Below, piece after piece: positions 1,350 to 49,278 of a stretch of 49,714 nt of DNA. How positions within the stretch are numbered: the stretch's first letter is position 1; each line of letters opens with the position of its first letter. The notes below the pieces were generated by a model that was given only the letters and a program-made list of their open reading frames with translations, was not told the DNA's origin and did not search any database. A program made the translations under genes and the position numbers. The stretch is from a virus: positions 1-49,714 of the IMG/VR virus record IMGVR_UViG_3300021976_000023, one strand, 5' to 3'.

Positions 1350-1386
1350 ACTCCAACGGTAGCACATCATATTGCCCGTGGGTCAA
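1350..1386 (-). promoter_or_regulatory. Promoter-operator of the XRE gene
   Basis: Reading leftward, TTGACC (1386-1381) belongs to the dyad TTGACC-CAC-GGGCAA. A -10 like TACCGT lies six bases before the ATG at 1349. The spacer is 19 bp, longer than the 17-18 bp at the other sites. Leaderless transcription is predicted. Confidence 0.6.
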
Positions 1387-1395
1387 GCCGACCGG

Positions 1396-2004
1396 TCACG
1401 GTCTGTCGCCTTGTGACCAGAGTCCAGTTCGCTCGGCCTGACGATTCCGTGCTTGTTCGATTTGACGTGCTAGTTCGGTACGAGATGGAATCGGCCGATT
1501 AACAAACTGCCATTCAGTCTGATTCTCATTTACTGTGCTACGCCACCACACATCCCAAGAGACTGCTGCTGTATCAATGTCTCTATCTTCGGTCACGTAA
1601 GCAGACATTTCTCGTTCGCGCTCTTGTTCCCGCTGGCGCCCTTCATTTATACGCCGTTCACTTGTGCAATGATTACACGGGCAATACACTCTCAACCCAG
1701 ATACCGGCGGCACATTTGGACGATCAAAGTTACGAACGTAGTTCGGGTTTTCCTCGGGCGGGTTCGCGACGGCACCTTCATATGAACCTAGCTTCGCGTT
1801 AAGCTTGTCAGCAGCTTTCCACGCGCGTTCCTCCGAGCTCGCGTAAGCTTTTGTCGGCGGCTTCCCGATCAACACGTCTTCGCCCGTAGCCGGGTCGAAC
1901 GTGAGCAAATCGAGATAGTGAGAGAACGAGATGACACACCACACGTCAGGCGCCGCCCACCTTGACGCGAGGCGGGAATCCGGAGAGACGACAACGTAAG
2001 TCAT
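1396..2004 (-). CDS. Unknown protein with a Cys/His cluster
   Basis: I do not recognise this 202-residue protein. It has an N-terminal region rich in aromatic residues, a central CPCNHC motif (residues about 110-115) that could bind zinc, a strongly charged stretch of Glu, Arg and Gln that looks like a coiled coil, and a Trp-rich part. The start at 2004 is preferred to the longer reading from 2040, because a -10 like GATCAT ends seven bases upstream with a TTGACC box 17 bp before it. It is the first gene leftward of the double operator and lies just upstream of the XRE gene, so it may be an early or regulatory gene. Confidence 0.7.
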   Translation of the reverse strand: MTYVVVSPDSRLASRWAAPDVWCVISFSHYLDLLTFDPATGEDVLIGKPPTKAYASSEERAWKAADKLNAKLGSYEGAVANPPEENPNYVRNFDRPNVPPVSGLRVYCPCNHCTSERRINEGRQREQEREREMSAYVTEDRDIDTAAVSWDVWWRSTVNENQTEWQFVNRPIPSRTELARQIEQARNRQAERTGLWSQGDRP

Positions 2005-2057
2005 AACACCCATGATCCCAGCACCTTGACCTACGGTCAAGCTTGACCTACGGTCAA
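2005..2057. promoter_or_regulatory. Divergent promoter with two tandem operators
   Basis: Two exact copies of TTGACC-TAC-GGTCAA lie at 2026-2040 and 2043-2057. Leftward, the copy nearer the gene gives TTGACC, 17 bp, then GATCAT, ending seven bases before the ATG at 2004. Rightward, TTGACC at 2026-2031 is followed after 17 bp by TACGGT (2049-2054), ending six bases before the ATG at 2061. The second operator covers the rightward -10, so a bound repressor would block both directions. Confidence 0.75.
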
Positions 2058-2060
2058 ACG

Positions 2061-2421: not shown

Positions 2422-3750
2422 TCAGGACGGTTCGTAATTGCTGCCGTGGCGACCGTGAGGGTCCGGCGGGACCTCGTAGCTCCCAGGAGGCGAACCTGTA
2501 AACGAGTCGATTTCTTGAGTGGTGCTCGGGTCCGGTGCCGGCGGAACCTCGTCGACGACGTCCCGACGTCGCGCAGCAGCCTCCGGGGGCGCCGTGTCCA
2601 TGTACGTGATCCGTTCGTTGGTGTACTCCGTAGGGTTCTGATCGAACCCCGGCGGGTACTCGTCCACCCACGTGCGGCCGAACGCTTCCGTTGTCGACAC
2701 CGGCGGCTCGGGTACATCCATCGCTTCCCTGAAGTCGGTAGTTGTAGCCGGCAATGTCCGGAGCAGTTCCACCACGAACGCGGACGCCAACGCCCGGTAG
2801 TCGATCTGAACCGAAGGCCCAGGAGGCGCCGTGTCCGGGAGGCGTGACAGAGCGGCTTGAATCGCCTGTACTGCGTCGTTGATGGCTTCAACCCACGCGC
2901 GCACTTCAGCGGTTGAAAGCCCAACCAAACCGATCGACTTTGCGAGCTCGCCGATTGCGGCGGTAGCCACCGCGTTCTGATTGAAGTCCTCTTGTGCGAG
3001 ACGCAACGTCTCCCGCGATGTACCCTGCCAAGCGCTCTGGCCAGGACCCGTGCCCTCATTCAATACGTCGCGGAAGATCTGCTTCAACTCATCTGCATTC
3101 ATGTCCTCGAAGTCTCCGATCTCAAGCCATTCGTTGACAACTCGGTTTGAATCGACATCGCCCGTAATACCGCGATGGGACCCGGTAGAGGTGAACTGCC
3201 GAGCGACCACCATCTGTCGAGACCAACCGGGAGGCAACACCACCTGATCGTCCGGTGTACTGTCATACAGCGAAATATGAAGATGCCGCCACTCTTCCGG
3301 AAGGTAGCTCGCCTGAAGTCGAGCGGGCTCCAAGTACCACCGACCCGAGTAGATAGCCCCACGCGGATAGCCGTATTGGGCCATAGCCGTGCAGAACTCG
3401 ACAGCATGAGCGCGAGCTCGCCACCACTCGGTAGACGGGCCGAGCCCTGTGTCCTCGACATCCAAACAGACCCAATCCCGGGCGGGGTCGAATCCGCCGA
3501 TACGTTGCAAAGTTGCTACGAAGAACGCAGCTTCATTGAAGCCTGTCGAGCGGGAAGGCGTCGCGTAGTGGTAGACCCCGCGACGCAACCCGTAGGCGCC
3601 TGCGCTATGCCACTGCGCGGCGAAGTACGGGTTCACGTACGAAGTACCTTGCGTGGCCTTTATCATCAGCCGATCGGGGCCACTGGCCGTGTAAGCCTCG
3701 ATACTGACGGCGCCTTGCCAGGATGAGATGTCAGCGAACGGCGAAGGCAC
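2422..3750 (-). CDS. Endolysin, GH25 muramidase
   Basis: Hydrolyses the peptidoglycan sugar backbone at lysis. Residues 1 to about 215 are a glycoside hydrolase family 25 domain: ADISSWQG at the N terminus (Asp7) and CLDVEDTG with Asp97 and Glu99, the usual catalytic positions. The second half (about 230-442) is not a recognised wall-binding domain. It has a helical stretch and then a proline- and acid-rich tail. It follows the tail genes and small proteins in the same direction, and a 60-residue two-helix protein at 13808 may be the holin. No lysin B accompanies it. The family assignment is firm; the role of the C-terminal half is unknown. Confidence 0.93.
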   Translation of the reverse strand: MPSPFADISSWQGAVSIEAYTASGPDRLMIKATQGTSYVNPYFAAQWHSAGAYGLRRGVYHYATPSRSTGFNEAAFFVATLQRIGGFDPARDWVCLDVEDTGLGPSTEWWRARAHAVEFCTAMAQYGYPRGAIYSGRWYLEPARLQASYLPEEWRHLHISLYDSTPDDQVVLPPGWSRQMVVARQFTSTGSHRGITGDVDSNRVVNEWLEIGDFEDMNADELKQIFRDVLNEGTGPGQSAWQGTSRETLRLAQEDFNQNAVATAAIGELAKSIGLVGLSTAEVRAWVEAINDAVQAIQAALSRLPDTAPPGPSVQIDYRALASAFVVELLRTLPATTTDFREAMDVPEPPVSTTEAFGRTWVDEYPPGFDQNPTEYTNERITYMDTAPPEAAARRRDVVDEVPPAPDPSTTQEIDSFTGSPPGSYEVPPDPHGRHGSNYEPS

Positions 3751-3756: not shown

Positions 3757-3990
3757 TCACCCACGAGCCTTGGTGCACACCTTGCATGAGCACTGATGAA
3801 CCGGGGCGGCAGCGTAGTGCTCGCGGAGGTAGTCGCTCGTGTTCTTCCGGGACTCGGGCCTTTCCGACAACCCTCGGGCACGCAACGTGCGGGGTCGGGG
3901 GTCGCGGTTCGTGTCGCGGGTTTCGTGACTCATGGGATTCTCTTCTCCGATCGGGCTGTAACCCTCATCATCCCCCGCGTCTTGCCCCAT
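3757..3990 (-). CDS. Small protein with C-terminal CxCxxC motif
   Basis: Unrecognised hydrophilic protein of 77 residues, Arg- and Asp-rich, ending in HQCSCKVCTKARG, a short cysteine cluster that could bind a metal. The start is uncertain. ATG 3990 follows a GAAAGG-type ribosome site and nearly touches the upstream stop. ATG 3933 has the better spaced GGAGAAGAG and would give 58 residues. The operator-like TTGCCC-CAT-GGTCAA (3982-3996) overlaps the first start and could form a promoter for the lysin end of the cluster (TTGACC, 18 bp, GATGAT). It lies directly before the endolysin gene. Confidence 0.6.
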   Translation of the reverse strand: MGQDAGDDEGYSPIGEENPMSHETRDTNRDPRPRTLRARGLSERPESRKNTSDYLREHYAAAPVHQCSCKVCTKARG

Positions 3991-3996
3991 GGTCAA
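3982..3996 (-). promoter_or_regulatory. Operator-like dyad with possible internal promoter
   Basis: TTGCCC-CAT-GGTCAA on the plus strand. Leftward it reads TTGACC, 18 bp, then GATGAT, upstream of the 3757 gene and the endolysin. It overlaps coding sequence, so it may be partly fortuitous, but the match to the dyad elsewhere is good. Confidence 0.45.
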
Positions 3997-28914: not shown

Positions 28915-28976
28915 GGACCAATTTTACCCATGGGCTTGACCAGGGGTCAAGGTGGGCATACGCTTGCCCCAGGCAA
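28915..28976. promoter_or_regulatory. Divergent promoter-operator between the two transcription blocks
   Basis: The dyad TTGACC-AGG-GGTCAA is at 28936-28950. Leftward, TTGACC, 18 bp, then TAAAAT (28926-28921) ends six bases before the ATG at 28914. Rightward, TTGACC, 17 bp, then TACGCT (28959-28964). A shorter dyad, TTGCC-CCA-GGCAA, follows at 28964-28976. One bound repressor would control both the late operon and the plus-strand block. Confidence 0.8.
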
Positions 28977-29037: not shown

Positions 29038-29379
29038 ATGCCCCACGTTCACGTGATCCTGTATCCGCACTCCAACACCAACCCGAGCGACGCCTACCGC
29101 GTGGCGCCTCACGACGCGTGGATGACCTACTTCAACGGGCTCGGTAAGACCTATCCGCACGAAGATTTCAAGTCGTATCACGAGGCTCGGATCTGTCGCG
29201 ACCAGCACAACAACCCGAGTCTGCACCGGAAATGCCTATGCGAGCACGGTTTGGTCGAGTGCTCGAACCAGGAAGTTGACCCTAGCGCTGACTCACCGTT
29301 CATCGGGTTGTGTCCGGACTGCCGATTGAATCGGAACCGCAGCGTCTGCGATCACAGCGCGGCTCGAAAGGACTCTTGA
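29038..29379 (+). CDS. Cys/His-rich small protein
   Basis: 113 residues of no recognised family. It begins MPHVHVILYPHSNTNPSDAY. The second half carries CRDQHNNPSLHRKCLCEHGLV and then LCPDCRLN...SVCDH, two Cys/His groups that could bind zinc. The ATG at 29038 follows GAGAGG; a GTG nine bases earlier is also possible. Upstream, the leader has a GGTGGC/GCCACC hairpin and the palindrome CTCTCGAGAG. It is the first gene of the plus-strand block. Confidence 0.65.
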   Translation: MPHVHVILYPHSNTNPSDAYRVAPHDAWMTYFNGLGKTYPHEDFKSYHEARICRDQHNNPSLHRKCLCEHGLVECSNQEVDPSADSPFIGLCPDCRLNRNRSVCDHSAARKDS

Positions 29380-29381
29380 CC

Positions 29382-29933
29382 ATGGCCCGTCCGATTGACC
29401 TCATGGCCCGACCGCGTTTCAGTTGGATCTCACGAAGCCGCGTCCCCTCGAAGCGCCCCCTCCTCGATAAGCCGTCCGCCGGTTACACCGCACAGCAGTT
29501 GGATGAGGGCGAAGAGACGTTCTTCGGGCTCGGGTTCCGTGTCTATCAGGGTCCGTCAGGGATGACCGGCCGCGCCGTGCATGTGAAGTTGACCGTGCGC
29601 GAGGCGGAAGATCTGGTCTGCTCTCTGTCGGAGCTGTTGGACGCGCACCGGCTGGACAACGATCCTCGTGAGCAGGCGCGCGCCCGTGACGCGAAGGTGG
29701 CGCGGGCGCGCGCCCGACAGACCGGCATCAACCCGATCGATCCCGAGTACCCACGTCCGCAGCATGAGGTTGCTCCGACCGCTCGCTCGAGCCTGAACCC
29801 GAGCCGTCCCGCCGCGTCCCTCGACAGGGCTGAGGGATGCGAACGGTGTAATTACGACAACCACGTTTGTCCTGGTTGTGGGGAGCCGTTGCCCCACGGA
29901 ACTGAGATCTGTCCGCCCTGCCGGGCGTTGTGA
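29382..29933 (+). CDS. Protein with C-terminal double zinc ribbon
   Basis: 183 residues, start ATG 29382 two bases after the preceding stop, with GAAAGGA upstream. The first part (DEGEETFFGLGFRVYQGP, VHVKLTVREAEDLVCSLSEL) looks like a small beta-helix domain. A basic Arg/Ala-rich stretch follows. The end is CERCNYDNHVCPGCG then CPPC, a zinc ribbon pair. A nucleic acid- or protein-binding role is plausible, unproven. It is in one unit with its neighbours. Confidence 0.7.
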   Translation: MARPIDLMARPRFSWISRSRVPSKRPLLDKPSAGYTAQQLDEGEETFFGLGFRVYQGPSGMTGRAVHVKLTVREAEDLVCSLSELLDAHRLDNDPREQARARDAKVARARARQTGINPIDPEYPRPQHEVAPTARSSLNPSRPAASLDRAEGCERCNYDNHVCPGCGEPLPHGTEICPPCRAL

Positions 29934-30124
29934 TCATGTCGCGACGTCGGGACCGCGAACAGAAGATCCGCTACGTGCACACCGTCACGGTGCGACGGGC
30001 AAACGGACGTTACGTAACGTCTCGGGACTTTCCCTCTCGCTACGCCGCGCGCGTACAACTACGGGCTTGGGTAGCCACGTACGACGAAACGTACTCGGTT
30101 ACGCACGACTCCCGACCGATGTGA
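29930..30124 (+). CDS. Small basic protein
   Basis: 64 residues from a GTG overlapping the preceding stop (GTGA); an ATG two codons later is the alternative start. Very rich in Arg and Tyr (VRRANGRYVTSRDFPSRYAA), beta-rich and probably nucleic acid-binding. No family recognised. It ends next to GTGAC-GCAC-GTCAC (30121-30134), an inverted repeat that precedes the next promoter. Confidence 0.6.
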   Translation: MIMSRRRDREQKIRYVHTVTVRRANGRYVTSRDFPSRYAARVQLRAWVATYDETYSVTHDSRPM

Positions 30125-30151
30125 CGCACGTCACACGCGAGCTTGCCTCCC

Positions 30152-30180
30152 TTGACCCGGGGGCAAGCCTGGTATTAGAT
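30152..30180 (+). promoter_or_regulatory. Promoter-operator of the DUF932 gene
   Basis: TTGACC-CGG-GGGCAA dyad (30152-30166), 17-bp spacer from TTGACC and -10 like TTAGAT at 30175-30180, followed by a leader of about 40 bases with a GGAAGG ribosome site. The 30175 stretch TTAGATGGTC recurs at 31934. Confidence 0.75.
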
Positions 30181-30223
30181 GGTCCTACACAAAGTTCTGC
30201 CCACTTCCCGGAAGGCAACGATC

Positions 30224-31276
30224 ATGTCGAACGAGACCCTTGGCTGGCTGAACGACAACGTCCTTGTTGGATTCACCGAACAGCGTAACGGCGCGTGGTG
30301 GTCCCGTGGTGGCGTCGATTCGAAGGGTCGCCCGAACCACTTCGAGACTGCCGTTCCGCTCGTTGAGGTGGAAAAGCGCCTGTTCAACTGGACACCCGAG
30401 CCCGCCTCGCTCCAATACGTGTTGCTCGGTAACAAGGTGCGGCATATCACGGAGAAGATCGGCGTCACCCGCTCGGACACCGGTGACCTCCTCGGCATCT
30501 TCGCCGAAAACTACCCGTTCACCTCATACCGGGAGCGCCTGTTGGACGGCCTCTCCGACATCCTCGACACCAACACGAACGATCTGGGCATCGGCTCGGC
30601 CGGTCTACTGCGCGGAGGCGCGCAGGCTTGGGTGCAGATCGAAGAACCCGACACCACCGAAGGCCCCGGAGGGATCAAGTTCCGGACCTCTCTCCTCGCG
30701 GCGACGTCGTTGGACGGTTCACTGTCGAACACCTTCAAGCGCGTTCTGACCATGGTCGTCTGCGACAACACGTTGTCCGCTGCGCTGGGTGAGACCGGTC
30801 CGTCCTACCGGTACAAGAACACCGCCAACAACAAGTTGAACGTGATGTCCGCTCGGGAAGCGCTTCAGATCGTGCAGCAGACCACCGACGCCGTGTCGCG
30901 CGAGCTCGCCACGCTGATCGACACGAAGCTCTCCGACGACGGGTGGTCAGCGTTCCTCGCGGAGCATGTCGAGCTGGATCGTGCGAAGGCGAAGGCTGCT
31001 GCCGGCACTCCGAAGGGCGGCAACGCGCTCACCCGCGCTACAAAGAAGATGTCCGAATTGAACGGTCTGTACCGCGAGGATGAGCGAGTGGCGCCGTGGA
31101 CGGGAACGGTGTTCGGCGCCCTTCAGGCGGTCAACACGTGGGATCACTGGGTACAGGGTGGTGTCCGCGAGGGTACCCAGCGGGTTGAGCGGAACGCAGA
31201 GCGGATGGTCACGGGCTACTACGAGGCTCTGGACGACACGACTCTTACCGCGATCAAGCGGTTCGCCACTGTCTGA
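30224..31276 (+). CDS. DUF932 phage/plasmid-like protein
   Basis: 350 residues of the DUF932 (TIGR03299) family, found on phages and plasmids and of unknown function. Family lines visible: NETLGWLNDNVLVGFTEQRN near the start, LQYVLLGNKVRHITEKIGV, TMVVCDNTLSAALGETGP followed by YRYKNTANN, and a C-terminal WDHWVQGGVREGTQRVERNAE. The ATG at 30224 has GGAAGG eight bases upstream. Single-gene unit with its own promoter and a 13-bp hairpin after the stop. Confidence 0.88.
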   Translation: MSNETLGWLNDNVLVGFTEQRNGAWWSRGGVDSKGRPNHFETAVPLVEVEKRLFNWTPEPASLQYVLLGNKVRHITEKIGVTRSDTGDLLGIFAENYPFTSYRERLLDGLSDILDTNTNDLGIGSAGLLRGGAQAWVQIEEPDTTEGPGGIKFRTSLLAATSLDGSLSNTFKRVLTMVVCDNTLSAALGETGPSYRYKNTANNKLNVMSAREALQIVQQTTDAVSRELATLIDTKLSDDGWSAFLAEHVELDRAKAKAAAGTPKGGNALTRATKKMSELNGLYREDERVAPWTGTVFGALQAVNTWDHWVQGGVREGTQRVERNAERMVTGYYEALDDTTLTAIKRFATV

Positions 31277-31310
31277 CAGGCGTTCCCGCGCGAGTTCGGG
31301 CGCGCGAGGC

Positions 31311-31344
31311 AACGGGCGTCACCTCGAAAGGGGTGGCGCCCGTT
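31311..31344 (+). terminator. Hairpin terminator after DUF932 gene
   Basis: 13-bp stem (AACGGGCGTCACC with GGTGGCGCCCGTT, one wobble) and an 8-base loop. No strong T-tract follows. Confidence 0.6.
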
Positions 31345-31358
31345 CGGCGTGTCGGAGG

Positions 31359-31388
31359 TTGCCTCACGGTCAAGCCCATGCCTATAAT
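31359..31388 (+). promoter_or_regulatory. Promoter-operator with consensus TATAAT
   Basis: TTGCCT-CAC-GGTCAA dyad (31359-31373) then 18 bp from the -35 to a perfect TATAAT (31383-31388). It drives the 37-codon gene at 31426. Only the right half of the dyad is canonical. Confidence 0.8.
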
Positions 31389-31425
31389 TGCGGGGCACAG
31401 TCAAAAACGAGCGGAAGGATTCGGG

Positions 31426-31539
31426 ATGACGAAGACCGAAATCGAGACCGAAATCTGCTGGTACTGCGGAAATGAGACCGATCCGGATGACCGGTGCCAC
31501 GGCTCCGAGCCCGACGAAGACGCTGGGAGCGACCGGTAG
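31426..31539 (+). CDS. Tiny zinc-finger-like protein
   Basis: 37 residues (MTKTEIETEICWYCGNETDP, then DDRCHGSEPDEDAG). CWYCGN and a later Cys-His could hold one zinc. The ATG has GGAAGGA upstream and its own consensus promoter, so this is a real gene despite its size. The acid tail resembles small phage host-takeover proteins, for example those that mimic DNA or bind RNA polymerase, but nothing specific is established. Confidence 0.68.
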   Translation: MTKTEIETEICWYCGNETDPDDRCHGSEPDEDAGSDR

Positions 31540-31547
31540 CCTCGCGC

Positions 31548-31586
31548 CCACGGAGCTTGACTCCCGGTCAAGCTCCGTGGTTAAAT
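31548..31586 (+). promoter_or_regulatory. Palindromic terminator-operator and promoter
   Basis: Perfect 14-bp inverted repeat with a 5-base loop (31548-31580) containing the dyad TTGACT-CCC-GGTCAA. The -35 TTGACT is followed after 18 bp by TTAAAT (31581-31586). The hairpin should terminate the previous transcript, while the DNA form is the operator of the next gene. Confidence 0.75.
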
Positions 31587-31625
31587 AGCCCTACGCCGCA
31601 ATATGCCTTCCCGAGAGGACCCACC

Positions 31626-31865
31626 ATGACCATCGACACCGCCGCCCTCGACAGCCGCCCGATGACCGCGCACGCTGCCGGCGTCGTCATGGGCATCACC
31701 ACTGCCCGGATGTGGGACACGGCTCGGCTCCTGATTGGTGGGGTCGACGGGATGACCCCCGAAGAGAACGAGCTCGCGTGCGCGATGGCGCATCGTGCGG
31801 CTCGCGCGGTGTCAGACGTGTACGAGACGATTTCGGAGCTGCCCCGGCGTTCGTGGATCGCCTGA
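31626..31865 (+). CDS. Small helical protein of unknown function
   Basis: 79 residues, ATG 31626 with GAGAGGA upstream. Helical, Ala/Met-rich (GVVMGITTARMWDTARLLIG), with an acidic middle (MTPEENELACAMAHRAARAV). No motif or family recognised. Its unit is bounded by the palindrome at 31548-31580 and the double operator at 31878-31924. Possibly a small regulator or host-directed protein. Confidence 0.65.
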   Translation: MTIDTAALDSRPMTAHAAGVVMGITTARMWDTARLLIGGVDGMTPEENELACAMAHRAARAVSDVYETISELPRRSWIA

Positions 31866-31877
31866 TCTGATCGAATC

Positions 31878-31939
31878 TGACCCCTGGTCAAGATGTGACC
31901 CGTGTCACTCTTGACCAGGGGTCACGTCTGTTATTAGAT
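31878..31939 (+). promoter_or_regulatory. Inverted pair of operators forming a 16-bp hairpin, plus promoter
   Basis: Two dyads (31877-31891 and 31911-31925) face each other, so that TGACCCCTGGTCAAGA pairs perfectly with TCTTGACCAGGGGTCA across a 15-base loop that itself holds GTGAC-CCGT-GTCAC. The second copy gives TTGACC, 17 bp, TTAGAT (31934-31939). It could act as terminator in RNA and as a high-affinity operator in DNA. Confidence 0.8.
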
Positions 31940-31980
31940 GGTCTTAGCCAAAGTTGTGCCCCGCCAAAGGAGCTTCCCCC

Positions 31981-32463
31981 ATGATCCTCACCGAAACCGC
32001 CAACGTAGCAGTCGGAACCCTCCCCGTGGGCGCCATGTTCCTCCACCCGACGACGCTCGAAGTTCTCAAGGTGCGCGCCGGTGCTGTTAACCCTGGTCTC
32101 TACGCTCCCGTTCCTGATTCTGATGTTGTTTACGCTGTTCCGGTCGGCAGCGATGATGTTATCGCCGGGTCGTACGTCTTCAAGGCTGACCGCAAAGTGA
32201 CGGTGGTGGTCGAGACCAAGATTGACCTCACCAACACCGGCCTCCACAACACCAAGATGATTTCGGTGCGCAAGCTCACCGAAGACCACATCGTGGTCGC
32301 GAGGAACGGTAGCCGCTTCACGATCAAGCCCGGTTCGCTTTACCGGTCGCAGTTCGGCGCCCCCGGCGGGGCAGCCCAGAGCGTGTGCACGCGGTTCGTG
32401 CTCAGCAATGGGCAAGTCTTCACAATGAACAACAACTGTATGCGAGTTCGGGTTGCTGTCTGA
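31981..32463 (+). CDS. Unknown beta-rich protein with own promoter
   Basis: 160 residues, starting MILTETANVAVGTLPVGAMF after AAAGGAG. Neutral, Val- and Thr-rich, with repeated short beta runs (DVVYAVPVGSDDVIAGSYVF) and a C-terminal Cys pair. No family recognised. A perfect terminator follows the stop. Expression from its own strong-looking promoter suggests abundant product, possibly early. Confidence 0.68.
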   Translation: MILTETANVAVGTLPVGAMFLHPTTLEVLKVRAGAVNPGLYAPVPDSDVVYAVPVGSDDVIAGSYVFKADRKVTVVVETKIDLTNTGLHNTKMISVRKLTEDHIVVARNGSRFTIKPGSLYRSQFGAPGGAAQSVCTRFVLSNGQVFTMNNNCMRVRVAV

Positions 32464-32475
32464 CAGATCGACAGA

Positions 32476-32503
32476 GCGGCCTACGTCACCCGACGTAGGC
32501 CGC
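32476..32503 (+). terminator. Rho-independent terminator
   Basis: Perfect 12-bp stem (GCGGCCTACGTC with GACGTAGGCCGC), 4-base loop, then TTTCGCGTTT. It immediately precedes the next operator at 32512. Confidence 0.85.
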
Positions 32504-32511
32504 TTTCGCGT

Positions 32512-32540
32512 TTGACCCCTGGTCAAGGTGTCGCTAAGCT
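32512..32540 (+). promoter_or_regulatory. Promoter-operator of 32578 gene
   Basis: Dyad TTGACC-CCT-GGTCAA (32512-32526), 17-bp spacer and -10 like TAAGCT (32535-32540). The leader is short, with GGAAGG before the ATG. Confidence 0.78.
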
Positions 32541-32577
32541 GCTCATGTATCCCACACCACAACGGAAGGCACGGACC

Positions 32578-33102
32578 ATGACCGACGCCCCCCGCGAGCC
32601 CGCCCACTCGCTCGGTGATGACCAGATCGAAGACCTCGACATCAACGGCCTGATGTCCGCCCTGTTCGGCGACGGCTCGGGCCCCGTTCCTGTCGTCGAA
32701 ATCGGGAGCCTGTCTCAGGAGGATGCGGACGCTATCGCGAAGCTCCTGACCGACGCCATGATGCCGAAGATCTGTAAGACGTGTGGGGTCGACCATGAGG
32801 CGGACATGGCCAAGCGACTCCATCGAGTGAAGACGGAAACGCGGTACGAAGAGCTCCTTGACCGAATCAAGGATCGACTGGCGGCCATCCTCGCAGATGG
32901 AGCGCTTCGCATGCTCGCCGCAACGGTCGCCGCCATCATGCCCGGATACGAGTCCTACTACTCCCCCGAGACGTGGGAGAAGACCGTTTCGGCGACGCTG
33001 GCGATCGCGATCAACGCGACGATGGAGGACATCAACGTCAGTCTCATGACCGAGTCGCGTAAGGCGATGGCAAAGGACGCGCCGGAAAAGGACCACAAGT
33101 AG
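32578..33102 (+). CDS. Acidic helical protein with Cys pair
   Basis: 174 residues starting MTDAPREPAHSLGDDQIEDL. An acidic N terminus, a CKTCGVDHEAD motif near the middle, then basic/acidic helices (RVKTETRYEELLDRIKDRLA) and an amphipathic Ala-rich segment. No known family; the CxxC with nearby His suggests a metal. First gene of the last plus-strand unit, with the SWIM and Pth2 genes downstream. Confidence 0.67.
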   Translation: MTDAPREPAHSLGDDQIEDLDINGLMSALFGDGSGPVPVVEIGSLSQEDADAIAKLLTDAMMPKICKTCGVDHEADMAKRLHRVKTETRYEELLDRIKDRLAAILADGALRMLAATVAAIMPGYESYYSPETWEKTVSATLAIAINATMEDINVSLMTESRKAMAKDAPEKDHK

Positions 33103-33135
33103 CCGCGCAGCGATTTCGAGGCGTATACTAGAACC

Positions 33136-33501
33136 ATGCCGACGACGCCCGAACTTTGCCCCCCGACCGTCCGTTGCATCCGGTGCGGACGCAAGCTCAC
33201 GTCTCGCAAGTCCATCGCCGATGGCTTCGGTCGTGAGTGCGGGCGCAAGGTTCGGGCGTCGCTCGTAGCGGTTGAGCAGAACTACAGCCGGATGCAGATC
33301 GTCAAGGCCCTCGATCTGATCGCGGCTCGGCGGATCGAACGGGATCATGCCGCCACCGTCGGTCTGTTCTACGTGGTGTGCGGATCGAACGCCTCGAAGT
33401 ACTACGCCACCCCGCGCGGCTGCACGTGCAAGGCGGCCGAGCATGGCCGTCGCTGCTACCACCTGGCGGCGGTTGAGATGCTGTCAGGAGCGATGCTGTG
33501 A
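33136..33501 (+). CDS. SWIM-type zinc finger protein
   Basis: 121 residues. The N-terminal half (RCIRCGRKLTSRKSIADGFG then RECG) is a four-Cys treble-clef-like motif of the DUF6011 type. The C-terminal part (YYATPRGCTCKAAEHGRRCYH) is a SWIM zinc finger, CxC-x(n)-CxH, often involved in DNA or protein binding. The stop overlaps the GTG of the next gene. A regulatory or DNA-binding role is inferred. Confidence 0.78.
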   Translation: MPTTPELCPPTVRCIRCGRKLTSRKSIADGFGRECGRKVRASLVAVEQNYSRMQIVKALDLIAARRIERDHAATVGLFYVVCGSNASKYYATPRGCTCKAAEHGRRCYHLAAVEMLSGAML

Positions 33502-33854
33502 CGGAACTCTATAAGCAAGTGATAGTCGTTCGGCTTGACCTGAACATGAGCAACGGGAAACTAGCCGCACAGGTGGCGCATGCAGCCACTAGCGCGGCTC
33601 TTTCCGCGCACGAATACGACATCGCGCGGTGGCGTGGCAACGGCATGGCTAAGATCGTGCTCTCGGTACCCGACATCTTCGGGCTTGCTCTCGTTCAGAG
33701 CAACGCGACTCGGTACGATTTGAACATGGCGGCGATTCGCGACGCCGGACGCACAGAACTCGCGCCCGAAACATGGACCGTGATAGCCGTCGGTCCGAAT
33801 CAGGCGAGCTTGATAGACCGCGTCACGGGCTCGTTGCCGCTCCTGAGAGGGTAG
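33498..33854 (+). CDS. Pth2-type peptidyl-tRNA hydrolase
   Basis: 118 residues matching the archaeal/eukaryotic-type PTH2 fold: KQVIVVRLDLNMSNGKLAAQ followed by VAHAA near the start, and IRDAGRTELAPETWTVIAVGP, the usual substrate-loop line. The expected activity is release of stalled peptides from tRNA. Finding it in an actinophage is unusual and may help the phage when translation stalls, or salvage tRNAs. It uses a GTG start overlapping the previous stop. No extra domain. Confidence 0.82.
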   Translation: MTELYKQVIVVRLDLNMSNGKLAAQVAHAATSAALSAHEYDIARWRGNGMAKIVLSVPDIFGLALVQSNATRYDLNMAAIRDAGRTELAPETWTVIAVGPNQASLIDRVTGSLPLLRG

Positions 33855-33856
33855 GA

Positions 33857-34249
33857 ATGGACATCCCGATCGCAGAGTGCATGCACTGTGAGACCACCGT
33901 CGCGTGGCTCGGCACCGCTCATTGCCTCGACTCACCCGCTGATATGTGGCATCCCCACGGGCTATGCGGGTGGCGTCACGCGGCGGGTGACGGCACGTTT
34001 TGGTGCTACCCAGACAAGAGGACAGGCGCCTACCCGCGCGCAACTCGTATCTGCCGGAAGGTTGAATCGCCGTACGGATGCGATGGCCCACACGAGCACG
34101 CGGGTAGCTGCCACGTGAGCTATATCGGCGTGTTCCAAGACGCTCCTTACCAGCCTCTGAACATCGAACATGGTGTGTGGTACCAAGCTCCTTCGTTTGG
34201 CTCGAAAACGGAATGGCTCGAAGCATGGACGAGGAAAGAGGCGCCGTGA
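33857..34249 (+). CDS. Cys/His-rich protein
   Basis: 130 residues starting MDIPIAECMHCETTVAWLGT. Paired motifs (CMHC, HCLD, HPHGLCGWRH, CRKVESPYGCDGPHEHAGSC) spread over the whole length indicate two or three metal sites. Aromatic-rich (WYQAPSFG). No family recognised. It follows the Pth2 gene by two bases, and its stop overlaps the next GTG. Confidence 0.66.
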   Translation: MDIPIAECMHCETTVAWLGTAHCLDSPADMWHPHGLCGWRHAAGDGTFWCYPDKRTGAYPRATRICRKVESPYGCDGPHEHAGSCHVSYIGVFQDAPYQPLNIEHGVWYQAPSFGSKTEWLEAWTRKEAP

Positions 34250-34452
34250 CGAAACCCGACCCCAACAGTGAGATCATTATGGTGCGTATGGTGGTCTCGC
34301 TCGAAGTGAACAAACGTTCATGGAGCGAGGAATTCGGCATCGACCCGCGATCCGATATTGTCCGACACGACGTGAAATCGTATGTGCGTACGCTACTTCA
34401 GGACCACGGGCCATCCCAAGACGAGCTCTGGACGGTCAAGAGCGTCACCTAG
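34246..34452 (+). CDS. Small acidic/basic protein, last plus-strand gene
   Basis: 68 residues, GTG start overlapping the previous stop (GTGA). One beta strand run (EIIMVRMVVSLEV) then a charged helical end (RHDVKSYVRTLLQDHG). No motif. The next promoter at 34458 starts six bases after its stop, so it ends the coding part of the plus-strand block. Confidence 0.62.
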   Translation: MTKPDPNSEIIMVRMVVSLEVNKRSWSEEFGIDPRSDIVRHDVKSYVRTLLQDHGPSQDELWTVKSVT

Positions 34453-34457: not shown

Positions 34458-34486
34458 TTGACCCCGGGGCAAGCGGCGCCCATACT
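34458..34486 (+). promoter_or_regulatory. Promoter-operator driving the non-coding locus
   Basis: TTGACC-CCG-GGGCAA dyad (34458-34472), 17 bp from the -35, then CATACT (34481-34486). No protein gene lies downstream before the convergent block, so the transcript would carry only structured RNA (34508-35141). Confidence 0.75.
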
Positions 34487-34507: not shown

Positions 34508-34577
34508 CCCACTCTCCCGAGCCGCATCTTTGGCTCCCTTCCGTGGACACGGCGGAAGGTAGGCTCGGGAGAGTGGG
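34508..34577 (+). ncRNA. Long hairpin 0 with inner stem
   Basis: Perfect 16-bp stem (CCCACTCTCCCGAGCC with GGCTCGGGAGAGTGGG), with an internal hairpin CTTCCG/CGGAAG in the loop. There is no T-tract, so it is not an ordinary terminator. It lies at the very 5' end of the predicted transcript and could protect it. Confidence 0.7.
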
Positions 34578-34587
34578 TCACCAACAT

Positions 34588-34693
34588 GGGGGCTGTAGCT
34601 CAACTGGCAGAGCGAAGGCGGCACCTAGGCAGCACAAAGAACGGTCGTGCTGGTCGACCTGTGGTTGAAGGTTCAAATCCTTTCAGCCCCCCT
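34588..34693 (+). tRNA. tRNA-like element with expanded centre (anticodon unclear)
   Basis: Canonical parts: acceptor GGGGCTG paired with CAGCCCC, TA, D-arm GCTC-AACTGGCA-GAGC, and T-arm GAAGG-TTCAAAT-CCTTT. A G before the acceptor faces the C after it, as in tRNA-His. Between the D-arm and T-arm there are 53 bases instead of about 23. They hold CAGCAC/GTGCTG and CGACC-TGT-GGTTG hairpins, and no 7-base loop with T33 flanked by a good stem was found. No CCA is encoded. It may be a degraded tRNA, a tRNA with an insertion, or a tRNA mimic. Confidence 0.5.
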
Positions 34694-34710
34694 AATCGAG
34701 CTTGGTTCGT

Positions 34711-34814
34711 GGTGTCCCGAAGAGTGGTACGCCCGGGAGAGCGGTAAGCCTGAACGTTGGGGATATTCCGCCGGTATGGGTGCGCGGATGTCGCGTCAGG
34801 GACTTCGGGGCATC
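34711..34814 (+). ncRNA. Long hairpin 1
   Basis: 12-bp closing stem (34711-34722 with 34803-34814, two wobbles) around an 80-base structured loop. It is preceded by AATCGAGCTTGGTTCGTG, a linker that recurs before hairpin 2 with two changes. Confidence 0.6.
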
Positions 34815-34834
34815 TCGAATCGAGCTCGGTTTGT

Positions 34835-34918
34835 GAGGTTGCGAAGCACGCTACTGATGTGCGTTGCTTGTCTGCGAATCCCGCGAGACAGTGATGCCGG
34901 GGCGTGCTTCGCAACCTC
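34835..34918 (+). ncRNA. Long hairpin 2, 17-bp perfect stem
   Basis: 34835-34851 pairs perfectly with 34902-34918. The loop contains TGTCT-GCG-AATCC-CGC-(G)-AGACA, an eight-pair stem with one bulge. The chance of both stems occurring at random is low. It is flanked by CGAGCTCG linkers on both sides (34821 and 34924). No coding capacity is seen on either strand. Confidence 0.75.
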
Positions 34919-34949
34919 TCATGGCGAGCTCGGTAAGACTTGACGACAA

Positions 34950-35020
34950 GATAAGAATGGGTCGCAGCGCGCTACATGTCGGTTGGGCGCGAATCCTGGC
35001 CATTGCCACCCATCTCTATC
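34950..35020 (+). ncRNA. Long hairpin 3, weaker
   Basis: GATA-(3)-ATGGGT at 34950-34962 pairs with ACCCAT-(3)-TATC at 35008-35020, with CGCGC/GCGCG inside. It shares GCGAATCC with hairpin 2. The linker TATCGAGCTCGATTC follows. After it, GCTACC/GGTAGC forms another small stem. Confidence 0.45.
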
Positions 35021-35088
35021 GAGCTCGATTCACAAGCTCCCGGCTAGCTACCGGGCACCTCGCGGGTAGCCTCGCGAGGCGACAAACA

Positions 35089-35501: not shown

Positions 35502-35768
35502 TCAGAACGTGCTGTCGCTCGCGTCGTCCACGTCGAGCTCGTCGAGCACGTACTTGTCATGCCGGACGATCGCCCTGTCCTTCAGGAGCTTGACGCCACC
35601 CGCGTGGCGCACGAGCACATCCTTGCCCGTCAGCGCCTCGACAGAGTCCGCGAACAGGGCGTGCAGCGTCTGACCGCGCCGGTAGACGATGCGGTGAATC
35701 ATGTCAGGCGCTTCGGGCGTCTCCACGGCGACATCCTCGGAGGTCTCAGTCTCGGCAATGGCGGTCAT
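35502..35768 (-). CDS. Small acidic protein after the translocase gene
   Basis: 88 residues with an acidic N terminus (TETSEDVAVETPEAPD), then HRIVYRRGQTLHALFADSVE, and a mixed C terminus. No family recognised. The start overlaps the translocase stop by four bases (ATGA) and has GAGAGGA upstream. It is the last gene of the leftward block; an internal promoter (35810-35838) may boost it. Confidence 0.65.
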   Translation of the reverse strand: MTAIAETETSEDVAVETPEAPDMIHRIVYRRGQTLHALFADSVEALTGKDVLVRHAGGVKLLKDRAIVRHDKYVLDELDVDDASDSTF

Positions 35769-37387
35769 GCGTGGGTCCTCTCATCGGGCATGGATTGCGC
35801 GTCGACTTCAGTGTACGCAGCGTTTGCCTCATGGGCAAACGTTACCGCCGGCAGGCTCGGCAGTGCGTACGGGTCGTCTTCCGGCGGCACCATGCCACCA
35901 ATGGCGATGAAGTCCGACAGTGCGTCGTCGATCCACGCGGTACGGAACCGGATGTAGTCGCGAGCTCCATCCTTGTACATGTAACCGGTACCCTGCATCC
36001 TTATGCTGATCTTGTGACAACGGGCGCCTTCAGCCGTCGCGCCCTGGCCCAACGTGATATCGGTCTGTTCCCGGTTGCGCGTCGCGAGGCACGCCCGTTG
36101 CGGGAACAGATCCCGGACCGGCCCGAGCGTCTCCTTTTGCGGCACCTGCGCTAGCGCGAGCACCGTGTACGCCGCTTTCCGGCCTATGGCCAAAGACTCA
36201 CCGAGCGGGCTGGACGTTCCATCCTTCAGCAGATCGGACAGTAGCAGCATCTCATCGATAATGAGCAGGTCGTGTGGTTGCTCCAACGATGGCGTATGCT
36301 TCCGAGATGTCATCCCATCCAACCGAGCATCCAACGCCTCACGCTGTTCGCTGATGACCCGTTCCGCGTCTTTCACCCTGTCCGTGTAGCTGTGCACATG
36401 GAACATGGGCCGCTCGCCGCGCAAGCATGGGCCACACACCCGACGGGCGCTCTTGTCCGTCGCGAGAGCCTTGGGTGGGCCACCCACCGATCTAGCTGGT
36501 CCATGAACCAGACGGCTATGGCCCATGTACTGAACCACCCGCGACCCGTCGACAGGCTCGGATGTCCTAGTGGTCCACACCCACTCTCCCGCCTCGCGTA
36601 GGGCAGCAAGCTCAACCCCACCGGCAGGGTCGACCACTCGGACCCGCAATGGGATACGCCTCCGTTGGAACCCCGCGAGGGTCGCCCAGGCGAGCGAGCT
36701 CTTACCGGAACCGGATTGACCTATGACAAGCATCGACAAGCGGGTGTCCACTTCGGCGTCATCGGCGTCGTCATCCATGCCGATCGAAACCGACAACTGA
36801 TCTTCCGGGATGCCCAGTTGATCTAGCTCGATTACTCTCCGTAGCGGGTCTGCCCATCGGAACTCGATCTCGCACTCTGACGGCCAATCACCATCCAAAA
36901 TCCGAACGGATCTACAGCGAAGCGAGCTACAAAGGCGCCCGGCAACCTTTCTCAGATCGTCGATGGTAAGTCCGGAACCTCCCAAGTCGACGAAACCGGC
37001 GACTGCTTCGCCACGCGCATGCACACCCGCTATTGTCGGTGCTTCCTTATCGAGCTCGCCCGTGAATCGCGCGGCCTCGCAGGCGTTTGCCCACCGACGC
37101 CGAACACGTGTTACTCTGGACACGGCTCGGACTCGCATCGGGAATCCCATCAAGGCGAAGCCTTGATGTGATACCGCAGCAAACCGAATCGTGTAACTGA
37201 AGAACGGTACGGTGAGAGCGAGTAGGGCGCCAAAACGTGAGCTAGTCCGCAGCATTCCGGCAGAGCCGAGAATGAAAGCGACCGTCCATCCCGGGTGCAG
37301 CCTCGCACCGCGAAACGTCAAACGGATTAGCCACATTGCAAAGGTTGCGACCAACACCCGCATAGACAATTTCACTGTGAATGCCAT
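35765..37387 (-). CDS. TraB/FtsK-SpoIIIE-type DNA translocase
   Basis: 540 residues. N-terminal hydrophobic segments (about 35-70) anchor it in the membrane. Walker A GQSGSGKS is at about 223-230, Walker B LLIIDE at about 374-379, and VVDPAGGVEL is a typical line after Walker A. This matches TraB-like translocases that move double-stranded plasmid DNA between mycelial cells of Streptomyces, which FtsK-type motors resemble. Between the two motifs is an insert of about 50 residues (280-330) with CGPC, absent from the relatives I know. SD AAGGAGG precedes the ATG. With the DUF2637 and basic membrane proteins it looks like a transfer unit. Confidence 0.85.
   Translation of the reverse strand: MAFTVKLSMRVLVATFAMWLIRLTFRGARLHPGWTVAFILGSAGMLRTSSRFGALLALTVPFFSYTIRFAAVSHQGFALMGFPMRVRAVSRVTRVRRRWANACEAARFTGELDKEAPTIAGVHARGEAVAGFVDLGGSGLTIDDLRKVAGRLCSSLRCRSVRILDGDWPSECEIEFRWADPLRRVIELDQLGIPEDQLSVSIGMDDDADDAEVDTRLSMLVIGQSGSGKSSLAWATLAGFQRRRIPLRVRVVDPAGGVELAALREAGEWVWTTRTSEPVDGSRVVQYMGHSRLVHGPARSVGGPPKALATDKSARRVCGPCLRGERPMFHVHSYTDRVKDAERVISEQREALDARLDGMTSRKHTPSLEQPHDLLIIDEMLLLSDLLKDGTSSPLGESLAIGRKAAYTVLALAQVPQKETLGPVRDLFPQRACLATRNREQTDITLGQGATAEGARCHKISIRMQGTGYMYKDGARDYIRFRTAWIDDALSDFIAIGGMVPPEDDPYALPSLPAVTFAHEANAAYTEVDAQSMPDERTHA
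35810..35838 (-). promoter_or_regulatory. Internal promoter-operator inside the translocase gene end
   Basis: TTGCCT-CAT-GGGCAA dyad (35824-35838). Leftward, TTGCCC, 17 bp, TACACT (35815-35810). It overlaps coding sequence, so it is less certain than intergenic copies. Confidence 0.5.
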
Positions 37388-38343: not shown

Positions 38344-38571
38344 TTAGGCTTGGACCCATCCATCAATGCGTGAATCCCATGTGCGGAGGCTCGGCTTATT
38401 GCTCCCGGGGCAAGGTGTCATCGTGCCTTCAATCATATGACGGGTAACCTTGGAGGACAACGGCTTGAAGACACGACCTATTCCCACGTTGGGAGCCGAC
38501 GACATCAGGCCCATGAGTCGATGACACTCGCAACACTCACCCTTGAAACGCACGATCCTATTGCTGGTCAC
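38344..38571 (-). CDS. Small zinc-finger-like protein
   Basis: 75 residues, GTG start at 38571 with GGAAGGGAG upstream, overlapping the previous gene by 14 bases in another frame. GECCECHRLMG and TPCPGSN suggest a Cys/His metal site. The longer reading upstream (to 38778) lies antiparallel in frame to a real gene and was rejected. Function unknown. Confidence 0.6.
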   Translation of the reverse strand: MTSNRIVRFKGECCECHRLMGLMSSAPNVGIGRVFKPLSSKVTRHMIEGTMTPCPGSNKPSLRTWDSRIDGWVQA

Positions 38572-41534: not shown

Positions 41535-41588
41535 TCTTAGATCATAGTCGAACCTTGACCCCTGGTCACGGTGTTGCCCGAGGGTCAA
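41535..41588 (-). promoter_or_regulatory. Promoter with two operators, DNA polymerase gene
   Basis: Dyads TTGACC-CCT-GGTCAC (41555-41569) and TTGCCC-GAG-GGTCAA (41574-41588). Leftward: GTGACC, 17 bp, TATGAT, then six bases to the ATG at 41534. The best -10 in the replication block. Confidence 0.82.
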
Positions 41589-46834: not shown

Positions 46835-47860
46835 TCACGCGACGGTTGGTTCCGCTACCGCCGCGATCTCGGGAGTCTGGGTCAGCACGGGAGTCTGCGC
46901 CATCGCGCGAGCCTTCGCGAGCTGAAAGATCTCATCGGTGTCTTTGGTGAGCGTGCCGTTGATGTAGGCGAGAATGCGCGTGAACGTCGCCGAAGGCATG
47001 CGCTTAGGGAGATCAGCGCTGTTCCGATCCTTGCCTCGGTACTTGCCGCCGTGCGGCACGGTCCAACCGGCGTACAACACGTCCGCGTTCTCATCATCCG
47101 AACCAGTGACGGCCACGGTGTGAACGAGCACATCCACAAATCCCGGGATCTCACTCATCAGTGCGGGGTTGACCGCCGGCCCGTACGCCACCTTGCCGTC
47201 CGGGTCACTGTCGCGCCGTTCCAGCGCGGTCAAACCGAAGTGGCAAGGCAGAGCTCGAAACTTGCGCAACAGATCCGAAACCTGATTGGTGGCGACGCCG
47301 TAGTCCGACCGATCGGTGAACCATCGGTCGCGGGCCTTCGAGGTCCCCCGGTTCTTCGTGAACTGCCGTTCCCGTTCGGTGGCGATCAGGATGCGCACGA
47401 TTTCAGTGAGGCTGTCGAATCCGACACCGGCCCACGAATGGGGGTCCGCGAGGAGATCGGATTTCATGCTGTAGTAGACCGCTTCGAGCCCGTCGAACGA
47501 GAGTTCCTCGCCTGCGAGGGTATTGGGCCACGGGATGATGTTGTCGGTGTCGATGCCTCGCTTGCGCAGAGCCCGTGGCTTCGCGCCAGCTTCAGCGTTC
47601 ACGAGTAGCACGCGGCCGAGATTGGCCATATCCAGGAGGTTGGTCGTCTTGCCGGTGCCTTCCTGCCCGTAGAATCCGAGCGTCAGGAAGTCGGTTTCAT
47701 CAGACAGACCCGGGAGGGCGCCCAGATTGATCCGTGCGGGACTGGTCGAGCTCGCCGGGGGTGCAGCAGCTACCGGGCGGATATCGGGGACCTTCGGTTC
47801 GCCTGTCGCTACTGCCGTCTGAACCTCGGGCGATAGTGCGGGGGTCGCAGCTTTCGGCAT
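46835..47860 (-). CDS. Sak4-like RecA-family recombination ATPase
   Basis: 341 residues; promotes strand annealing or exchange. Proline- and alanine-rich N terminus, then TLGFYGQEGTGKTTNLLDMA (Walker A), an Asp in GVGFDSLTE as Walker B-like, and ERDRWFTDRSDYG-type lines typical of phage Sak4 (AAA_24). It follows a Cas4-like nuclease and precedes an SSB, the standard exonuclease-recombinase-SSB group. ATG 47860 has GGAG upstream. Confidence 0.87.
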   Translation of the reverse strand: MPKAATPALSPEVQTAVATGEPKVPDIRPVAAAPPASSTSPARINLGALPGLSDETDFLTLGFYGQEGTGKTTNLLDMANLGRVLLVNAEAGAKPRALRKRGIDTDNIIPWPNTLAGEELSFDGLEAVYYSMKSDLLADPHSWAGVGFDSLTEIVRILIATERERQFTKNRGTSKARDRWFTDRSDYGVATNQVSDLLRKFRALPCHFGLTALERRDSDPDGKVAYGPAVNPALMSEIPGFVDVLVHTVAVTGSDDENADVLYAGWTVPHGGKYRGKDRNSADLPKRMPSATFTRILAYINGTLTKDTDEIFQLAKARAMAQTPVLTQTPEIAAVAEPTVA

Positions 47861-47927
47861 AGGGAAGACTCCAATCTCAATGTCTGCCCATCATGGCACG
47901 GCCTTGACCCCTGGTCAAACCCCTGGT
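47861..47927 (-). promoter_or_regulatory. Promoter-operator of the Sak4 gene
   Basis: Dyad TTGACC-CCT-GGTCAA (47904-47918). Leftward TTGACC, 17 bp, CATGAT, then a 29-base leader with GGAG. A second half-site (TGGTCTA) overlaps the right side. Confidence 0.72.
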
Positions 47928-48959
47928 CTAGTCGCCCTCCTCCTCGGTTATTGCGCCCTGTCGCTCAAAATTCTGTCGGAATCCCTGGTCAAAGAGGTAG
48001 CCTCGCAGGTCGGCAAATCCCTTGCGTGAGGCAATATGTGCTCCGGAGAAGTCGCAGGCCCGTTGGCACCACTCGGGGTCGGGAGACGAGGGAAGATCGC
48101 CACTCTCCTCGGGGTTCCACCCGTAGGCGAGCCCGAGCATCTTGGTGGCGTCGATGGCGAGCATGACAAGTTCGTGATCGGTTTTGTCGAAGAGATGTCG
48201 TTTCACGTAGTCGCGCGGCGTGTGCCCGTTATTGGCTTTCCACGCTGGCATACCCGCCGCTAGGAGCCTTTCTCGTTCTGCTGCCGCTTTCTTCGTTTCC
48301 TTATCGACGTGCCGGTAAGTTGAAGTCCATATCATCATCGACCCGAAGACGTTCTTACCGAGCTGCCGAAGTATCCACGTGTACAGCCCGAACTGATCGT
48401 TAAGGTCGTTGAGTTTCGAGCCTGGATCGCGGGAGCCCGACTTGTGATCGACGATCCATATCTGATTGACGACCTGATCGAGCACAACTAGGTCGACAAA
48501 CACCTTGCAATCGAAGTTGGACTTTTGGCCGTCGGTGCGAGGCAACCATCCCACGGCGTTGTATTCAACCGCGAGAATAGTCCAATTCGGCGTTAGGTCG
48601 TAAACCGTGCAGTAGTTGTGATACATCCATGTGAGTTTGTCGATGACATCATCGTGGTAACCACCGTTCGTTAGCTGCGCGGTAGCGGCTTCGGCGACCC
48701 GCAACGTTTCAGCGGTGTCGTATTGCCAGTAACCCCCCGCGCGGGGTCCGGTGTCAGCTTCGAGGCGCTCCCGTTGGATGGCGAACAGCTCCCGGAAGTG
48801 CGCGGCCATGACTTCATGCCATGCGATACCGAGTGCTCGCGGCCCGCCGACGTCGTCCTGTGTCCAACGCTCCTTGTAACCAAGCTGCCATTTCAGAAGG
48901 CATTGACGCATCATGTTGATTTCGGACCACGACACGGTGATCCTGTCTTCGCCGGTCAT
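47928..48959 (-). CDS. Cas4/RecB-like PD-(D/E)XK exonuclease
   Basis: 343 residues. N-terminal SWSEINMMRQCLLKWQLGYKE is the usual Cas4-like start with its first Cys; GIAWHEVM supplies the His; CKVFVDLVVLD gives an Asp, and IWIVDHKSGS gives the D-x-K of the nuclease. CQRACDF near the C terminus may complete an iron-sulphur site. It probably degrades DNA ends for recombination with the neighbouring Sak4. It begins four bases inside the preceding gene. Confidence 0.86.
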   Translation of the reverse strand: MTGEDRITVSWSEINMMRQCLLKWQLGYKERWTQDDVGGPRALGIAWHEVMAAHFRELFAIQRERLEADTGPRAGGYWQYDTAETLRVAEAATAQLTNGGYHDDVIDKLTWMYHNYCTVYDLTPNWTILAVEYNAVGWLPRTDGQKSNFDCKVFVDLVVLDQVVNQIWIVDHKSGSRDPGSKLNDLNDQFGLYTWILRQLGKNVFGSMMIWTSTYRHVDKETKKAAAERERLLAAGMPAWKANNGHTPRDYVKRHLFDKTDHELVMLAIDATKMLGLAYGWNPEESGDLPSSPDPEWCQRACDFSGAHIASRKGFADLRGYLFDQGFRQNFERQGAITEEEGD

Positions 48960-49243
48960 ACCGGAGGCTCCTGAGTCCAGATGCGCCGCTCGTCTTGCTC
49001 GCGCTTTAGCTGCTCTTTTGCCTCTTTGAGTTCGGTAAGGATCTTACCGATTGTTTTATCCGCTTTCGTGGCCGCGCGGATACGATCGTGACGAATCACG
49101 AACGAAACCATTTCACGAATGGATAGAAAAGAGCAATCATCGTGGGACAAAAGCGCTTCGAGTGTTTCGTTCAGTTCATCATCGGACAGACTGATTGGAC
49201 GAGGCATGGGGATGCCCGAGTCAGCATCAAAATCGGGAGTCAT
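48956..49243 (-). CDS. Small charged helical protein
   Basis: 95 residues starting MTPDFDADSGIPMPRPISLS. Mid part with FLSIREMVSFVIRHDR, C-terminal coiled-coil (ILTELKEAKEQLKREQDE). No family known. It starts six bases after TACCAT, predicting a leaderless message from the operator promoter, and its stop overlaps the Cas4-like start by four bases. First gene of the replication block. Confidence 0.65.
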   Translation of the reverse strand: MTPDFDADSGIPMPRPISLSDDELNETLEALLSHDDCSFLSIREMVSFVIRHDRIRAATKADKTIGKILTELKEAKEQLKREQDERRIWTQEPPV

Positions 49244-49278
49244 ACCGCCATGGTAGGCCGGGCTTGACCCCTGGTCAA
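49244..49278 (-). promoter_or_regulatory. Promoter-operator of the replication block
   Basis: Dyad TTGACC-CCT-GGTCAA (49264-49278), leftward TTGACC, 17 bp, TACCAT, six bases, ATG 49243. It overlaps the last codons of the helicase gene. Confidence 0.8.

Follow-up and report, generated by a model that had tools for sequence, protein, structure and literature searches.

The virus record IMGVR_UViG_3300021976_000023 of IMG/VR, analysed here over its complete length of 49714 bases (the window), carries 17 copies of a 15-bp dyad, TTGACC-N3-GGTCAA. The evidence strongly supports the view that these 17 dyads are a real and complete set, and that nearly all of them are embedded in promoters. We consider it probable that they are the operators of one dimeric phage repressor, most likely a 93-residue XRE protein encoded in the window, which would block nearly all phage promoters.

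The dyad is a repeated, intergenic DNA element

An original prediction, made from the sequence alone, had listed 17 dyads, and every listed coordinate was verified. Six copies match TTGACC-N3-GGTCAA exactly, and a reversed-pattern control gave none. With at most one mismatch there were 15 matches at a gap of 3 and either 0 or 1 at every other gap from 0 to 14; a relaxed half-site pattern likewise found 15 copies, against 0.1 expected. At up to three mismatches enrichment is mild (34 versus 20 by chance), and this is the wrong cut-off for judging it. TTGACC-N3-GGTCAA also ranked first in an unbiased search of the window for repeated palindromes with 6-bp arms.

The 17 sites were also turned into a symmetric matrix, and a scan of the whole genome with it returned exactly these sites. 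They scored 16.7–26.1 bits, the next best position 11.4 bits (38399, coding) and the rest 8.3 bits or less, a separation clean enough for the list to be taken as complete. Position 38399 was dropped as an eighteenth site, being weak, in coding DNA and without a good -10. By midpoint, 16 of the 17 dyads are non-coding (binomial p about 1e-18) in a window that is 93.65% coding by the gene calls made in this analysis, bearing out the claim that nearly all copies are intergenic. The sole coding dyad, at 35824, falls within the 3' end of an FtsK-like gene and closely precedes the next gene. Early, replication and structural units all have sites, so that the predicted coverage of both early and late blocks was also confirmed.

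Selection had been proposed to act on the half-sites, with the spacer free to vary. The arms are indeed conserved, with TTGAC present on 23 of the 34 strands, but the centre is partly constrained, CCT/AGG recurring in 7 of the 17 copies. Arms are unequal in 11 copies (for example, TTGCCC opposite GGTCAA) and their changes are mostly uncompensated, indicating a DNA dyad in which RNA pairing is not what is conserved; a reading as RNA hairpins was rejected because most asymmetric copies alter one arm without the other. Half-sites conserved about one helical turn apart fit a helix-turn-helix dimer.

The dyad arm occupies the -35 position of promoters

At 14 of the 17 sites, a TTGACC-like half lies 16–19 bp (mostly 17–18 bp) from a -10-like hexamer aimed at a gene or, for the promoter at 34458, at a tRNA-like array; this count treats the sibling promoters 30152 and 31911 as promoters too. 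The left half had been predicted to be the -35, with a -10 at 17–18 bp. That description is correct for plus-strand genes and for most spacings, but for minus-strand genes it is the right half that serves, the spacing extends to 16–19 bp, and three copies (2043, 31877 and 41574) lack a -10 of their own; these sit 17, 34 and 19 bp, respectively, from a promoter copy. Scoring of -10 elements took in 18 sites, the 17 dyads plus the weak site 38399. A -10-like hexamer (score 2.8 or more, at 16–19 bp) was found at 15 of the 36 strand positions, compared with a 5% background, and 12 of the 18 sites had one on one strand or both, compared with 10% expected.

The start codons show a further regularity. 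The -10 is followed by exactly 6 nucleotides (nt) and then ATG at five sites, 1372(-), 2026(+), 28936(-), 41555(-) and 49264(-), and by 7 nt and ATG at 2026(-). A -10, 5–8 nt and an ATG thus occur at 6 of 34 strand positions, against 0.1 expected (0.3% background). Promoters with a -10, six nt and ATG would, by this geometry, be leaderless, which suggests where the XRE, polymerase and other genes really start. At 28936 and 2026 the geometry suits a promoter on each strand. Leaderless starts and two-strand use, like the lack of a detectable integrase (see below), had been overlooked in the original prediction.

The strength of the two promoter elements varies. Copies with a weaker -35 arm (31359, 31557, 35824 and 41555) carry good -10s, although this is a trend only. 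Near-consensus -10s exist (TATAAT, TAAAAT and TATGAT), and those at 30152, 31911 and 3982 are weak. The siblings 30152 and 31911 have in common a 59-nt promoter block, 80% identical, with TATTAGATGGT (30144–30202 for the first). CRP-like palindromes, TGTGAC-N4-GTCAC(A/T), lie upstream of these two siblings, at 30120–30135 and 31894–31909; their genome-wide count is not above chance. Gene 33136 has a leaderless-type promoter without a dyad (TATACT, 6 nt, ATG; 33122–33138), so the dyad is not on every promoter.

Table 1. Coordinates of the dyads and of two associated genes.
Feature	Coordinates	Strand	Details
Operator/-35 of XRE gene	1372..1386	-	-10 TACCGT 1361-1356, spacer 19, 6 nt, ATG 1349; leaderless by geometry
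Two-way operator/-35	2026..2040	both	Plus side: -10 TACGGT 2049-2054 inside next copy, 6 nt, ATG 2061
Two-way operator/-35, minus side	2026..2040	-	-10 GATCAT, 7 nt, ATG 2004
Second tandem copy	2043..2057		Provides plus-strand -10 of 2026 promoter
Operator/-35	3982..3996	-	-10 GATGAT 3972-3967; upstream of small gene 3757-3933 and endolysin 3099-3747
Divergent operator, minus side	28936..28950	-	-10 TAAAAT 28926-28921, 6 nt, ATG 28914; first structural-block gene
Divergent operator, plus side	28936..28950	+	-10 TACGCT 28959-28964, towards 29038
Operator/-35	30152..30166	+	Upstream of 30224-31276 (phrog_1221); CRP-like palindrome TGTGACGCACGTCACA at 30120
Operator/-35	31359..31373	+	-10 TATAAT 31383-31388; gene 31429
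Operator/-35	31557..31571	+	-10 TTAAAT; gene 31626
Auxiliary copy	31877..31891		34 bp upstream of 31911; no own -10
Operator/-35 of gene 31981	31911..31925	+	Promoter block 80% identical to 30144-30202 over 59 nt
Operator/-35	32512..32526	+	-10 TAAGCT 32535-32540; gene 32578
Operator/-35	34458..34472	+	-10 CATACT; reads into hairpin and tRNA-like array 34508-35080
Operator/-35	35824..35838	-	-10 TACACT 35815-35810; gene 35502-35768; within 3' end of FtsK-like 35765-37387
Operator/-35 of DNA polymerase A gene	41555..41569	-	-10 TATGAT, 6 nt, ATG 41534; leaderless by geometry
Auxiliary copy	41574..41588		Adjoins 41555
Operator/-35	47904..47918	-	-10 CATGAT; Sak4-like gene 46835-47860
Operator/-35	49264..49278	-	-10 TACCAT 49255-49250, 6 nt, ATG 49243; leaderless by geometry; overlaps SNF2 gene stop by 4 bases
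XRE/HTH_3 protein, 93 residues	1068..1349	-	Candidate DNA-binding partner; profile match
202-residue protein of unknown function	1396..2004	-	Operators on both flanks

A candidate binding protein

The only HTH_3 match in the genome is the 93-residue XRE protein (PF01381, 29.6 bits, cut-off 23), which PHROGs groups with transcription regulators. Its gene carries site 1372 in its own leaderless-type promoter, and the tandem pair, both perfect copies, is found at a distance of 0.65 kb. A single-sequence structure model of moderate quality (predicted local distance difference test score, pLDDT, 67) was used solely to call the protein XRE-like; its best Foldseek matches were XRE proteins (ClgR, C.BclI, HigA and lambda repressor), none with E < 0.001. 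Judged from the adjacent site 1372 and the fold, this protein is the likely binder of the dyad, a candidate whose assignment is not secure.

Several observations weigh against this assignment or against lysogeny. The protein is without helix 1 of the standard XRE domain, its match beginning at profile position 10. A relative in Streptomyces phage Hiyaa adjoins lysis genes, and the 30 kb examined there yielded no repeated dyad. Relatives by terminase or capsid, namely P1312, Dagobah and several IMG/VR records, carry neither the window dyad nor a clear dyad of their own, and the pairing of XRE protein and dyad, as judged from these sequences, has no comparative support. Finally, no match to a tyrosine or serine integrase (PF00589, PF00239) or to the ParA-type profile PF13614 was obtained in the window.

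Dyad-bearing relatives were sought more widely. Scans of IMG/VR for relatives of the XRE protein, of phrog_1221 or of the capsid protein found none, nor did a scan of plasmids find a relative of the XRE protein. Three actinomycete genomes with terminase relatives (about 28 Mb) contained no exact dyad copies. IMG/VR contigs with tandem copies (L059, L060) were rejected as relatives, the copies lying inside coding regions of apparently unrelated phages, as were five contigs with a dyad–promoter–ATG arrangement, which had one copy each.

Genome layout and probable host

The sequence from position 7 recurs at 49589, and this 126-base end overlap gives a circular assembly of 49582 bp; the G+C content of the window is 59.8%. 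A minus-strand structural block (2379–28914) encodes endolysin, tape measure, capsid, portal and terminase, and is followed by a plus-strand gene block at about 29038–34452 and by a minus-strand replication block with FtsK-like, HNH, PolA, Prim-Pol, Sak4-like, PD-(D/E)XK exonuclease and SNF2 helicase genes. No sigma factor or RNA polymerase gene was seen among the proteins scanned, which made up part of the open reading frames.

The host is probably an actinomycete, Streptomyces-like. The closest named terminase relatives are distant (Thermobifida phage P1312 at 58%, Streptomyces phage Dagobah at 52%), the capsid protein is 52% identical to that of Dagobah, and the first 25 kb of the window had no nucleotide-level match. 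Among the relatives by terminase are a Prauserella muralis prophage and records that bear an integrase; some of them lie in chromosomes. The window contains no CCGCGG, of which about 37–41 copies were expected; CTGCAG, CAGCTG and AGGCCT are also absent and TTCGAA is nearly so. Avoidance of CCGCGG, CTGCAG and CAGCTG is common to Streptomyces phages Dagobah, phiC31 (where few copies are expected) and R4, a hint of a Streptomyces-like host; P1312 and three prophage relatives show no such avoidance. The window also encodes a DUF2637 protein (28045–28914), and its FtsK/SpoIIIE-like ATPase (35765–37387) has matches on actinomycete plasmids, which possibly bear on non-integrated maintenance.

Proposed mechanism and alternatives

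In the mechanism that we propose, the XRE protein would autoregulate through site 1372, and the housekeeping sigma factor of the host would read each TTGACC arm as its -35 hexamer. With that arm inside the operator, a bound dimer would cover the -35 together with the upstream portion of the spacer, and so block RNA polymerase. Because the dyad is symmetric, a single site could serve promoters on either strand, as at 28936 and 2026. Once bound, the protein would shut off the regulatory, early, replication, structural and lysis transcription units at the same time, and so act, much as in phiC31, as a global repressor of a prophage or carrier state. The sequence, number and placement of the dyads, the conservation of their half-sites and the -35/-10/ATG geometry are observed here, whereas we infer the binding, the identity of the protein, the direction of its effect and lysogeny; a repressor of the whole genome would point to a temperate or carrier state.

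The same operators could instead belong to a lytic phage, in which a Cro-like damper would lower all phage transcription while accumulating and there would be no lysogenic state. This is compatible with the missing integrase and ParA matches and with avoidance of CCGCGG, CTGCAG and CAGCTG, which suggests frequent exposure to restriction during infection. However, the temperate phage phiC31 avoids the same sites, the terminase relatives include the Prauserella muralis prophage and integrase-bearing records, and the structural operon is covered as well, an extension of no obvious use to a damper; we regard the damper as unlikely, though more probable than the other alternatives. Were the dyad an activator site, a phage protein at the -35 would recruit polymerase and give phage-specific promoters, in keeping with the weak -10s at 30152, 31911 and 3982 and with the presence of the dyad in every phage block. 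Yet the dyad holds a near-consensus -35, whereas activators usually bind upstream or replace a poor -35, and several -10s (TATAAT, TAAAAT and TATGAT) are close enough to consensus to need no help, which makes activation improbable.

A host regulator binding the dyad, by which the phage would be plugged into a host regulon, seems more improbable still: a host regulon should have left a few exact copies in the three actinomycete genomes, which have none, even though further regulators may be at work here, as the CRP-like palindromes at 30120 and 31894 indicate. We give least credence to partition, replication or packaging sites that chance to be intergenic. Dyads of that kind might equally be palindromic, dispersed and intergenic, but here the -10/ATG geometry is fixed, the dyads extend over all transcription units without clustering, and ParA gave no match. 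Repression by one dimeric phage protein is the reading that we favour.

Other features of the window

A tRNA-like gene within 34589–35080 was matched by the Rfam tRNA model (45.7 bits) and missed by ARAGORN; it has a long insert in the anticodon arm. Further stem-loop units follow it, separated by GAGCTCG-containing repeats, in an array driven by the operator promoter 34458. A peptidyl-tRNA hydrolase PTH2 gene (33498–33854) lies about 0.7 kb upstream of the array. A palindromic octamer, CGAGCTCG, occurs in 31 copies versus 1.4 expected from base composition; the copies are dispersed and mostly in coding DNA (for example, at 1020, 2220, 31769 and 47747).

Comparison with known operator systems

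If repression of this kind is correct, the window would offer a clean case of whole-genome silencing by an initiation block alone, intermediate between the lambda switch, with few operators, and L5, where elongation is blocked at many sites. The sequence would then predict immunity, start sites and regulon, and an element that is operator and -35 at once could provide a compact repressible promoter part for actinomycetes. A more specific proposal is that, in an integrase-less phage, one module forms the operator and -35 of nearly every promoter, divergent and leaderless ones included, and that a very small XRE dimer silences the genome in a non-integrated or carrier state, by initiation block only, with neither stoperators nor a phage sigma factor. 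We offer this combination tentatively, as unlikely when taken as a whole.

The layout had been described as different from known stoperator arrays such as that of mycobacteriophage L5. L5 and other Cluster A phages have 20–30 dispersed sites for one repressor, including an early-promoter operator (PMC6550527), and the L5 sites are asymmetric 13–14-mers, bound by monomers, oriented with transcription and mostly off promoters (PMC6550527, PMC9283540). The distinction from L5 holds: although TTGAC is present, as its complement, in the consensus 5'-GGTGGTTGTCAAG cited for one Cluster A phage, the window sites are symmetric, with TTGACC on both strands, and 14 of the 17 fit a promoter with a -10. 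Streptomyces phage R4, like the present phage, has multiple repressor sites between genes (PMC10276819). Its repressor, gp29, is annotated as similar to L5 gp71 and, used as a query for an L5-like repressor, had no match in the window; nor did the palindrome scan find a dominant repeated dyad in the R4 genome. In mycobacteriophage BPs, the repressor gp33 controls four promoters from several binding regions (PMC4557955), but there are five regions only, with 12-bp palindromic half sites in composite operators, one of them between the -10 and the -35.

What the claim of a distinct layout overlooked is phiC31, which like L5 has multiple (18–30) dispersed repressor sites (PMC4557955). Our identical scan of phiC31 recovered, as its top repeated dyad, 16 near-perfect dispersed palindromes with the core TACTCACGTGAGTA, 15 of them intergenic; this recovery is an internal positive control and identifies the closest known layout. 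Both are actinophages with one palindrome repeated genome-wide, mainly between genes (17 copies here versus 16), and genome-wide dispersed operators as such are therefore not new. The palindromes nevertheless differ in sequence, the phiC31 copies are near-identical to one another, and no homologue of the phiC31 repressor (gene c) was found in the window (tblastn, E 0.05). In phiC31, the palindrome neither contains a TTGAC -35 nor has one at a constant distance (1 of 32 strands), whereas in the window TTGAC is the arm itself. What is new is that operator and -35 are fused, that the fused element is used at leaderless and divergent promoters, and that no integrase or ParA could be detected. The system is best read as dispersed operators of the phiC31 kind in a new form, in which operator and -35 are one element.

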